Positions 5,114 to 8,496 of a stretch of DNA of 64,000 nucleotides are shown piece after piece. This DNA is from Tanticharoenia sakaeratensis NBRC 103193 (GTDB lineage: Bacteria; Pseudomonadota; Alphaproteobacteria; Acetobacterales; Acetobacteraceae): contig NZ_BALE01000009.1 of NCBI RefSeq assembly GCF_000963885.1, forward strand, positions 186,001 to 250,000. Direction: 5' to 3'. A program made the position numbers and the translations under genes. Each line of letters begins with the position of its first letter. Positions within the stretch are counted from its first letter, which is position 1. Below the pieces are notes generated by a model. It was not told where the DNA came from and ran no database searches. It saw nothing but the letters and a program-made list of their open reading frames with translations.

Positions 5114-5548
5114 TCAGTTGACGCGTCGTCGCAGCCATTCCGTCTCCCGGACCACCACCGATTTCAGCAGCGCCAGAACGGCATCGCCGTCTTCCGATAC
5201 CGCTGAAATTGGCAGTTGCGACGACAGCGTGGTGTCGCTCGAGCCTGTAAAAGCCATCGACCAGTCGGCGAAACTCCGGGCCTGGATAGGGCCGGACCGC
5301 AATACAATGACTTCGCTGTGGCGCTCATCGCATTGGATGCGCTCGAAGGCCGCCACCACGGCATCCATCGGACCTTCCAGAACCTGGGCGAAGCATCCGT
5401 CGCTGAAGATGAGCCCACCCGGCACCTGATCGCGCGCATTGTTCTGGCGCGATATCGCCAGAATCGTCTCTATATTGTCGGAAACCAGCTTCGAGCCGCC
5501 CGACATGCGGTTCCGACTGCAATAGAGAACCTGATAGAGTGCGGACAT
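5114..5548 (-). CDS. BLUF-domain blue-light photoreceptor
   Basis: The 144-residue protein is a stand-alone BLUF domain that should bind FAD. The residues of the photocycle are present: Tyr9 (LYCSRN), an Asn in the QNN at 35-37, Gln55 (FAQVLEGP), and the Trp96/Met98 pair (DWSMAF). After the roughly 100-residue core only a short helical cap follows, with no output domain, so it must act on a partner protein. It is the second gene after a PAS-GGDEF-EAL protein, with only 12 bp between them, making that protein or its c-di-GMP output the obvious partner. Photoreceptor class is clear from the residues; the partner is inferred. Confidence 0.9.
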   Translation of the reverse strand: MSALYQVLYCSRNRMSGGSKLVSDNIETILAISRQNNARDQVPGGLIFSDGCFAQVLEGPMDAVVAAFERIQCDERHSEVIVLRSGPIQARSFADWSMAFTGSSDTTLSSQLPISAVSEDGDAVLALLKSVVVRETEWLRRRVN

Positions 5549-5560
5549 CGCTATTCCTTG

Positions 5561-7300
5561 TCAGTTATCAGTGTTTTTTTTGCTGTTGTGGCGAGCGATC
5601 ATCAGATCGACCTCCTCCACAGGGATGGGGCGACTGAACAGATAGCCTTGAACAATCTTGCAACCGCCTTCGCGGATACGGGCAAGCTGCTCAGGTGTCT
5701 CTACGCCTTCGGCGATGGTCGCCATGCCCAGGCTCCCGCCCAGCGCGGCGATCGCGCGGATGACAGCATCCTGACCACGGTCATCCGCGCGGTCTTTCAC
5801 GAAGGAGCGATCGATCTTGATCTTGTCGAAGGGAAAACTGTGCAACTGGCTCAGTGACGAATAGCCCGTCCCGAAATCGTCCATCGCGACACGGACACCC
5901 ATGGCACGCAGGCGATGCAGAGCGTCCAGCACCCGGTCGGCATCCTGAAGAAGAACGCTTTCGGTAATCTCGAGCTCAAGCCGGCTGCCTGGCATGTCTG
6001 CCGCGGCAAGGGCCTCGGCGACCGCGTCGATCAGGCGATCTGTATCCCCGAACTGGCAAGGCGATACGTTGACCGCAATAGAGATATCACTTGGCCAGCA
6101 GCTTGCCGCGAGGCAGGCCTGCGAGAGAACCCATTCTCCCAAAGGCACGATCAGCCCGATCTCTTCAGCCAGAGGGATGAATTCCATGGGCGAGATGAGA
6201 CCGCGCTCCGGGTGGTGCCAGCGTAGCAGCGCTTCAAACCCGACGATGACGTTTCTCTGAAGATCGATCTGAGGTTGGAAGTGAAGAGAGAATTCACGCA
6301 GCGCCAAGGCTTTGCGCAGATCGTTCTCATTCTGGCGTCTTGCGGCCGCCCGTACGTCCATGGTCGGCTGAAACAGGCTGCTGGTCCCGCGCCCTCGGGA
6401 TTTCGCATCATAGAGGGCCAGGTCGGCGCTCCGCAGCAGGATCGCGTAGGTGCTCCCGCGCAGGGGGGTTACCGCGACGCCGACGCTGGCACCGATATTC
6501 ACAAGGTGACCATCCACCAGATAAGGGCGGCTGAGCACGTCGACGATTCGCGACGCAAGCAGGGAAACGGACTGAAGATCCGGTGCCGGCGAGATAAGGG
6601 CTGCGAACTCGTCGCCGCCGAACCGGGCTATAATGTCGGTCTGACGCATCATGCCCTGAAGGCGCTTCGATACAAGTCGAAGCAGCCCGTCTCCGGTCAG
6701 ATGACCCAGCGTGTCGTTGACGTTCTTGAAGCGATCGAGATCGATTACCATGACGGCGGGGCCATCGACGCCCTCTGATGCATTGCGATCCAGCGCCGCG
6801 ACGACCCGATCCTCGAAGAGCGTCCTGTTCGGCAGACCGGTCAGCGGATCACACATTGCCTCCTCGACGGCGCGAGCTTCGGCGACGCGCTGCGCGGTCA
6901 TGTCGACGATCGTCGCGAGGAATGTCTGATCGGGAAGGGGCTCAATCCTGATCGAAAAATAGAAAATTCCTTTTTCGTTCGAGCTGATTTCCAGCAACTT
7001 CAGCCGCCGCGTGAGGACCGCGTCGTGACAGGCTGCCAGCACCTGCTGAACGGCGGTCGAAGCGAGGATCGGGCTGCTTTCGATGAATGTCTGCAAATCG
7101 CTGCCAGCTCCGGCAGCATCGTCTGACAGGTCCAGCACAATCCTGAGCTGCTCGTTCATGAATTGGACGCACAAGGCGTCGTCGAAAGTAAACAGACCCA
7201 GATGCAGGCCATTCAACGCTGATCGCAGATGCATGATCGCAGCAGGACGGCGTGGTCTGCCGTGAGTATCCTGCGTGGGCTGCAACAACGACACCGTCAT
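5561..7300 (-). CDS. PAS-GGDEF-EAL c-di-GMP turnover protein
   Basis: The 579-residue cytoplasmic protein has a PAS-like sensor at about residues 25-140, a GGDEF domain and an EAL domain. The cyclase motif GGDEF is intact (228-232), with an inhibitory-site RxxD (RQTD) five residues upstream. The phosphodiesterase motifs are intact as well: EAL (356-358), LEITESV, DDFGTGYSSL and KIDRSF. It may therefore synthesise and degrade c-di-GMP, the net direction being unknown. No membrane segment is visible. The ATG at 7300 is preferred because GGAG lies 10 nt upstream; a TTG two codons earlier is too close. It leads the BLUF gene. Confidence 0.93.
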   Translation of the reverse strand: MTVSLLQPTQDTHGRPRRPAAIMHLRSALNGLHLGLFTFDDALCVQFMNEQLRIVLDLSDDAAGAGSDLQTFIESSPILASTAVQQVLAACHDAVLTRRLKLLEISSNEKGIFYFSIRIEPLPDQTFLATIVDMTAQRVAEARAVEEAMCDPLTGLPNRTLFEDRVVAALDRNASEGVDGPAVMVIDLDRFKNVNDTLGHLTGDGLLRLVSKRLQGMMRQTDIIARFGGDEFAALISPAPDLQSVSLLASRIVDVLSRPYLVDGHLVNIGASVGVAVTPLRGSTYAILLRSADLALYDAKSRGRGTSSLFQPTMDVRAAARRQNENDLRKALALREFSLHFQPQIDLQRNVIVGFEALLRWHHPERGLISPMEFIPLAEEIGLIVPLGEWVLSQACLAASCWPSDISIAVNVSPCQFGDTDRLIDAVAEALAAADMPGSRLELEITESVLLQDADRVLDALHRLRAMGVRVAMDDFGTGYSSLSQLHSFPFDKIKIDRSFVKDRADDRGQDAVIRAIAALGGSLGMATIAEGVETPEQLARIREGGCKIVQGYLFSRPIPVEEVDLMIARHNSKKNTDN

Positions 7301-7306
7301 GATCAA

Positions 7307-7683
7307 GCTGCTCCGCCTTCTGGTTTTTTAGGCTGTGTTGCAGCGCAATAGACACCGGTTTTATGGAAGAATCGTTAACAGGCGGCCACGCTCGGTCACG
7401 GATACTTGATCGTATTCTCGATTTACTGAGATAACTTCGATTGTTTATTGTGAAAACAATTATATTCGGGAATAATATTGCCAACGTTTTGTAGACACAT
7501 TTACCAGAAAAGCCGGATTTTTATCTTTCGATGATGTTTGTGAAACAGCCCTGTCAGCCGGTTACCGTGAAGTAACGACGTCTTCCTGCTTGCAAGGCAT
7601 GAGCATAAATGTGCCCGGCGAGGAATCTGTTCCACAGTGAGCCTGCCAAAACCCCGCAGCAATCGGGATGGCCAGGCGCAATG
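7307..7683. other. Intergenic region without genes, upstream of the GGDEF-EAL gene
   Basis: No credible gene lies in these 377 bases. The section 7320-7540 is much more A+T-rich than its surroundings and probably holds the promoter of the leftward c-di-GMP/BLUF unit. A TATAAT hexamer occurs on the minus strand at 7459-7464, but no well-spaced -35 hexamer is convincing. A 21-bp inverted repeat (7440-7460) overlaps it. Confidence 0.5.
7440..7460. repeat. Inverted repeat, candidate operator
   Basis: ATTGTTT (7440-7446), a 7-base spacer, then AAACAAT form a perfect 7-bp dyad about 140 bp upstream of the GGDEF-EAL start. It overlaps the only TATAAT-like hexamer on the minus strand. The spacing suits a dimeric regulator. 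No regulator is identified. Confidence 0.4.
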
Positions 7684-8496
7684 TCAGCGTCCCCGCCACG
7701 CCATCCTGACGGGCATGGCACGGTAGGCCGCCAACGTCCGGCCGCTGGATGCCGCCATGCCTCCGAAAGCACTGCCGGGCGCAGTTGCGCGCCGGATGAT
7801 CCGTGGAGGAGGACCATAGGCGATAGCCGTTGGCGGATGAGGCGTGAACGGCGAGCCAAGGGGCGTCTGCTCCGCAGGCCGGAATCCGGCGGAAAGCGGT
7901 ATGATGTGGCTGAAGCCGGGCAGGGCACCTCCTGTCCACAGGGCCATGACCCGCCGCGCGTAGTCATCGCCGATGCCCGGTGTCTGGGAGTGATAGGCAC
8001 CGGCCGCTGCCGGCCAGCCGTGCTTTTTTCGAAAAAGCGTTCCCAGAAACTCCGCTGCGTACCGGGCATTGGCCATGGGATCGAACGCCGCGTCGAGGGA
8101 CGCAAATGCGTCGGGGTGATTGCGCAGGTTGATCTGCATGCAGCCGACATCAAGCGATGTGACGCCGCGATTCAGGAAATCGCGTGCGGCGGCAATCGCT
8201 TCTTCCTTCGTTTCATAGAAGTAGCCGTGTCCGTTTGCATCGATGGTCCACGGCCAGGCGCGAAGCGCACCGCTTTCGGGATCACGGCGGCCGCTTTCTA
8301 TCCGGCTTATCGCATCAAGCAGCCGTGTCGGGATCTGGAACGCGCTCTCGGCAGTCGCCGCAGCGCGGGCGCACTGTGCTGCGGGGTCGCCCAGCGGCAC
8401 AGCTGCGATCATGCTGCTGCTGTCGTGTGCCGACGCAGTACGCAGCAGGAGCGCAAGGCAGGTCAGGAGACCGAGAAGTCGGCAGAACAGCGTCAT
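7684..8496 (-). CDS. Lytic transglycosylase (SLT-type) with signal peptide
   Basis: The 270-residue protein starts with a cleavable-looking signal peptide ending near ASA (residue 23). An SLT-fold domain follows: AISRIESGRRDP holds the catalytic Glu, and VGCMQINLRNHPDAF, ANARYAAEFL and AAGAYHSQTP are the usual downstream motifs. These enzymes cleave peptidoglycan glycan strands with 1,6-anhydro formation. The tail after about residue 200 is proline-rich and low in conserved features. Similar proteins accompany type IV secretion or flagella, but no such genes are nearby, so it is probably a general wall enzyme. Confidence 0.85.
   Translation of the reverse strand: MTLFCRLLGLLTCLALLLRTASAHDSSSMIAAVPLGDPAAQCARAAATAESAFQIPTRLLDAISRIESGRRDPESGALRAWPWTIDANGHGYFYETKEEAIAAARDFLNRGVTSLDVGCMQINLRNHPDAFASLDAAFDPMANARYAAEFLGTLFRKKHGWPAAAGAYHSQTPGIGDDYARRVMALWTGGALPGFSHIIPLSAGFRPAEQTPLGSPFTPHPPTAIAYGPPPRIIRRATAPGSAFGGMAASSGRTLAAYRAMPVRMAWRGR

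Follow-up and report, generated by a model that had tools for sequence, protein, structure and literature searches.

The genome of Tanticharoenia sakaeratensis carries, within the stretch of 64,000 nucleotides analysed here (the window), two adjacent genes on the minus strand. The upstream gene (5561..7300) encodes a protein of 579 aa in which Pfam finds PAS, GGDEF and EAL domains; the downstream gene (5114..5548) encodes a stand-alone BLUF protein of 144 aa (Pfam BLUF, 92.2 bits). Gene coordinates and Pfam matches agree on this point with the sequence-only reading, which had placed a stand-alone BLUF gene 12 bp after a PAS-GGDEF-EAL gene. The 12-nt gap (5549..5560, minus) includes a ribosome-binding-like site, AAGGA, ahead of the BLUF ATG, and the two genes probably form one operon. 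The start assigned to the PAS-GGDEF-EAL gene is the ATG at 7300, though a TTG at position 7306 could serve instead. Upstream lies an AT-rich intergenic stretch of 383 bases (7301..7683; 46.7% GC), presumably the promoter region. Promoter-like matches number two between 4750 and 7800, versus 0.9 (sd 0.9) in shuffles, and neither promoter nor terminator scans near the pair rise clearly above shuffled sequence. Downstream, tRNA-Ser and gatB are encoded on the plus strand and run towards the pair; upstream, beyond the 383-base stretch, comes a transglycosylase gene oriented like the pair. The latter (7684–8496, minus) shows a faint resemblance to VirB1 (19.7 bits; cut-off, 212). The GC content of 5114–7300 is 59.7%, compared with 63.9% (sd 1.7%) for window stretches of the same length—a weak hint of transfer.

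The BLUF profile is covered in full (positions 1–92 of 92) in the Pfam scan of the 144-aa protein, and the scan detects no second Pfam family at E <= 0.001. The domain, delimited by Pfam match and alignment (5252..5539, minus), contains Y9, N37, Q55, W96 and M98; that is, the photocycle set Tyr, Asn, Gln, Trp/Met is complete. Y9, Q55 and M98 never vary among 53 aligned BLUFs, the window's included, and conservation is at least 90% for N37 and W96. Asn and Trp are known participants in the BLUF photocycle. Tyr, Gln and Met are the residues named for BlsA in the excerpted account of that protein (PMC8508746). The protein is expected to bind FAD. Its C-terminal helix (residues 119–143; 5120..5194, minus) is a candidate for partner contact, drawn from a low-confidence structure model whose pLDDT in this region is mostly below 50. 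A profile search of the genome finds this one BLUF and no other.

The larger protein begins with a PAS_7-like domain (residues 29–141; 6878..7216, minus), a weak match whose 30.2 bits barely exceed the cut-off of 27. The GGDEF domain (6386..6859, minus; Pfam GGDEF, 138.5 bits) contains the GGDEF motif itself, read in the sequence at 6605–6619 (minus), and five residues ahead of it the sequence RQTD (6635–6646, minus), which we take to be the I-site. The EAL domain (5627..6325, minus; Pfam EAL, 249.3 bits) displays the motifs EALLRW, NVS, EITES, MDDFG, KID, AEGVET and QGY. It possesses all 11 of the 11 metal and catalytic sites scored. The GGDEF catalytic and I-site residues tested are likewise all intact, and the earlier claim that the catalytic motifs and I-site are preserved therefore holds for every residue tested. 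This EAL domain is one of eight EAL matches in the genome; of the other seven, some of them partial, four have a full EAL set, two a full GGDEF set and one an I-site. Confidence in the structure models of the two proteins is low (mean pLDDT 58.8 and 68.3). A fold search with the low-confidence model of the larger one puts DosP and PAS-GGDEF-EAL and GGDEF-EAL structures on top, and the fold searches add nothing beyond the domain calls.

How often does this arrangement recur? In the family, Acetobacteraceae, 137 of 397 genomes have some BLUF, and a BLUF like that of the window (E <= 1e-15) occurs in 62 of the 397, at 73 places in all if the window is counted. At 52 of these places, distributed over 49 genomes, a GGDEF-EAL gene immediately precedes the BLUF gene in the same orientation, in one case fused to it. 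The remaining 21 have no adjacent partner, and in one of them (L099) a partner lies at a distance of 292 nt. Weaker matches make up most of the 21; L099 and L106 sit among paired BLUFs on the tree. Next to the 24 other top-scoring family BLUFs, no same-strand GGDEF-EAL neighbor was found within 1.5 kb (0/24). Near three unpaired BLUFs (L004, L150 and L159) a GGDEF or EAL gene lies on the opposite strand—GGDEF-EAL for L004, one of the 24—and none was scored as a pair. Flanks were read to 1.5 kb for these 24 and for the class sample described below, and to 4–5 kb elsewhere, less at contig ends. The label 'paired' changes 7 times over a tree built from 124 BLUFs, compared with a shuffled mean of about 41, and 0 of 500 shuffles gave as few changes. 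(In the comparison of paired with other BLUFs, L089 was replaced by L123.) From the pair counts and these label changes together, the pairing of BLUF and GGDEF-EAL genes is beyond chance. Since 60 of the tree's 121 inner forks are open, a single origin of pairing is neither established nor ruled out. The C-terminal helix offers a lead, too: a motif there, picked after the sequences, which are related, had been viewed, occurs in 21 of the 57 BLUFs that are paired and in none of the 61 that are not. A looser pattern gives 37 of 57 and 8 of 61. It is a candidate for the surface that meets the partner.

A BLUF match at E <= 1e-25, with up to 10 candidates scored per genome, turns up in at least 29 of 385 sampled genomes of the class, our own included. 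Leaving the window aside, 28 places could be read and one of them is paired; a BLUF in two frames (L161) was dropped, and two matched places had no locus. Among plasmids, 112 records match. Seven of the 11 examined are paired, these being the seven best-ranked of the 112, and the four lower-ranked ones are unpaired. The paired plasmids belong to other families: Skermanella (twice), Rhizobium (twice), Neorhizobium, Aureimonas and Sinorhizobium. Several plasmid loci have peculiarities of their own. In Skermanella rosea pSR-2 (L163, 3436–4428) the partner gene is a mere fragment and the BLUF lies in two frames, and in Rhizobium sp. CC-CFT758 (L164, 2385–3983) the partner extends across several frames, from decay or sequencing error in either case. 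In Skermanella mucosa pSM-1 (L169, 2326–6759) bchE and bchJ follow immediately after the pair in the same orientation, which may point to a connection with bacteriochlorophyll synthesis. A Methylobacterium currus plasmid (L171, 2482–4456) has a short EAL gene some 730 nt upstream of the BLUF gene, same strand, with an opposite-strand PAS gene between; this was not scored as a pair and is perhaps a looser, PapA–PapB-like set. The loci L176 and L184 each have two close same-strand BLUF genes and no GGDEF-EAL neighbor.

The pair is conserved, and it is portable. A search of 66 loci from relatives, most of which reach 4–5 kb to each side, for six of the window's neighbors (RuvX, GatA, GatB, the transglycosylase, IDH and a peptidase-like ORF) brought up four weak matches of 33–36% identity: a GatA-like one in L082, and IDH-like ones in L087, L092 and L100. 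The genes surrounding the pair differ, and a conserved chromosomal site, considered for it, was not seen. Distances in the BLUF and partner trees correlate (r=0.53 over 49 pairs, with 0 of 2000 permutations as high, a figure that still includes shared genome descent), and in 37 of the 49 the nearest neighbor is common to both trees; three of the 52 pairs, namely both L082 rows and the short partner of L100, were left out. In one genome (G098) there are three such modules, two in tandem (L082, 3409–7829), the first split and the second fused, and a third on the contig of L123. The fused one is an open frame for GGDEF-EAL-BLUF of 651 aa (L082:5877–7829), placing on one polypeptide the EAL and BLUF domains that in the window occupy two genes; a Met just ahead of its BLUF part makes separate translation possible.

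MorA, PA0575 and PA0861 of Pseudomonas aeruginosa, likewise GGDEF-EAL or PAS-GGDEF-EAL proteins, rank among the solved structures closest to the window's partner; none of them is known to have a BLUF partner gene. BldP is one polypeptide that ends in an EAL-BLUF module. Here there are two proteins instead, except in the fused relative (L082), and the order—EAL, then BLUF—is common to both. In BlrP1 and YcgF the BLUF domain comes first, at the N-terminus. Similarity between the window BLUF and BlrP1 is weak (E=0.00079 and 0.0035). The BldP proteins of Allochromatium vinosum and Magnetococcus marinus, and the derivative EB1, resemble the present system in having a BLUF sensor, and PMC8846402 describes them as phosphodiesterases (PDEs) activated by blue light. 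BlrP1 (Klebsiella) and YcgF (Escherichia coli) also couple BLUF to EAL, in one chain rather than in separate genes as here, and the available passages on them mention no GGDEF (PMC8846402, PMC4844311). Then there is PapB–PapA of Rhodopseudomonas palustris, in which a short, one-domain BLUF protein, PapB, acts in trans on the EAL PDE, PapA, the signal passing through the BLUF C-terminal helices (PMC8846402). By that description PapA is a solo EAL protein, whereas the partner here consists of PAS, an intact GGDEF with I-site, and EAL (PMC8846402). Trans-acting BLUF–EAL pairs (PapB–PapA) and one-chain EAL-BLUF enzymes (BldP) are already known; here the two proteins are split, the partner is bifunctional and carries PAS, and the two genes are conserved together. 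No description of a conserved BLUF and GGDEF-EAL operon was found in the literature searched, much of it in excerpt, which does not establish its absence from print.

By analogy with PapB–PapA and BlrP1, as outlined in the excerpted PMC8846402, it seems likely on balance that the BLUF protein docks in trans on its PAS-GGDEF-EAL partner, and that blue light raises the hydrolysis of c-di-GMP. The BLUF protein would hold FAD. Blue light would rearrange the Tyr9–Gln55 hydrogen-bond network around the flavin, and the signal would pass from the last strand (Trp96/Met98) through the C-terminal helix to the EAL domain. This domain would then hydrolyse more c-di-GMP, and light would mean lower c-di-GMP. 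The PAS domain would be a second input. The GGDEF domain could be a working cyclase held in check by its I-site, or it could bind GTP and so regulate EAL. What the sequences show is the two genes with their motifs, and a pair that is conserved and portable; the operon, FAD binding, complex formation, the sign of the light effect and the downstream target are our suppositions. The broader proposal of the sequence-only reading, light control of c-di-GMP, gains from the conservation of the pair, the one fused relative and the intact active sites, and to that extent it stands as a prediction from sequence. A BLUF–EAL protein need not be a PDE: the EAL of YcgF is described as inactive in the portion of PMC4844311 available.

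Which of the two enzymatic activities matters more can be gauged from the partners in the family. EAL catalytic residues are complete in all 51 partners that are fully readable, and across the 52 none of the eleven sites is ever substituted, one truncated partner being without one site. The GGDEF domain, too, is present in all 50 partners scanned (50 of the 52 were aligned, the short L095 and L100 being left out), and this, together with the GGDEF sites that are all intact in 37 of them, the window's among these, and the I-site intact in 46, would suit a true two-way switch, in which GGDEF makes c-di-GMP in one light state, EAL removes it in the other, and BLUF sets the balance. The catalytic D or E of GGDEF has been lost in 6 of the 50, however, against no EAL loss in 51, which makes the cyclase dispensable in the group, and a degenerate GGDEF can serve instead as a GTP-binding regulator of EAL (PMC3989770, in part). 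Such a switch is, we think, unlikely. With EAL sites never lost and GGDEF catalysis lost in six, the hydrolysis of c-di-GMP is the constant output, and conservation favors EAL over the equal weight that the first reading had given the two domains. The N-terminal part varies over the 50 partners—PAS_8 in 11, PAS_7 in 9, and PAS_4, PAS_9 and MHYT in 2 apiece. Judged by sequence, then, the constant core would be EAL plus BLUF, the cyclase common yet dispensable, and the N-terminal sensor exchangeable.

The two genes might, on the other hand, be merely transcribed together, the BLUF protein acting on some other target, in the way that BlsA acts on transcription regulators, while GGDEF-EAL answers to PAS alone. 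BlsA is an example of a short BLUF protein with partners of an unrelated kind (PMC8508746, in excerpt), and the 21 of 73 similar BLUFs that have no adjacent partner would fit. A pair that is kept amid differing neighbors, recurs on plasmids of other families and has once become fused makes this account distinctly improbable. BLUF might also regulate its partner in some other way, for instance by inhibiting it in the light or by sensing redox or flavin status. The sequence, from which the sign of the effect cannot be read, allows this, and yet it is very hard to credit, since the BLUF-linked PDE systems tabulated in the part of PMC8846402 consulted (BlrP1, two BldP, PapB with PapA) are all activated by blue light, and Spongiibacter nanhainus, though no phototroph, is known to use a BLUF protein for sensing blue light (PMC8805636). 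A term search of the Spongiibacter paper (PMC8805636) returned none of c-di-GMP, GGDEF or EAL.

If docking in trans and light-raised hydrolysis are what the pair performs, what might the lower c-di-GMP do? A profile search of the genome, listed as 99.89% complete, finds no match to Photo_RC, the reaction-centre genes, and this bears out the description of the host as non-phototrophic; a match for PQQ alcohol dehydrogenase (666 bits versus a cut-off of 480) is present, which would suit an acetic acid bacterium. In the family, Photo_RC occurs in 20 of 49 pair-bearing and 104 of 348 other genomes (Fisher p=0.14, uncorrected for kinship; one genome, G018, with a match under the cut-off, was counted as without), and 29 of the 49 have no reaction-centre genes. 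Phototrophy as the reason for the pair was rejected for want of a significant association. Cellulose, which had been put forward as the possible output, is not supported for this genome, a profile search having found no match to BcsB. PilZ has no match either, by the same kind of search, and a PilZ-mediated output was likewise set aside; given the eight EAL matches, the c-di-GMP receptors would be of other kinds. One flagellin scores above its cut-off, and motility, or attachment through another receptor, is a possible target.

A bolder reading, possible though rather unlikely, is that the two genes form a portable photoreceptor cassette that differs from PapB–PapA in its bifunctional PAS-GGDEF-EAL partner. 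Acetobacteraceae, mostly non-phototrophic, would gain from it a balance between making and degrading c-di-GMP that is set by light. Exchangeable sensors at the N-terminus would supply a second input, and the BLUF C-terminal helix would have evolved for docking. A split, two-protein, light-controlled c-di-GMP switch could serve in optogenetics. For most short BLUF proteins we know of no target. They made up 64% of bacterial BLUF proteins in a 2014 survey, according to the passages of PMC4844311 available. With the pair described here, one short-BLUF lineage gains a likely target from genome data, and its response to light is directly testable, in non-phototrophs too.
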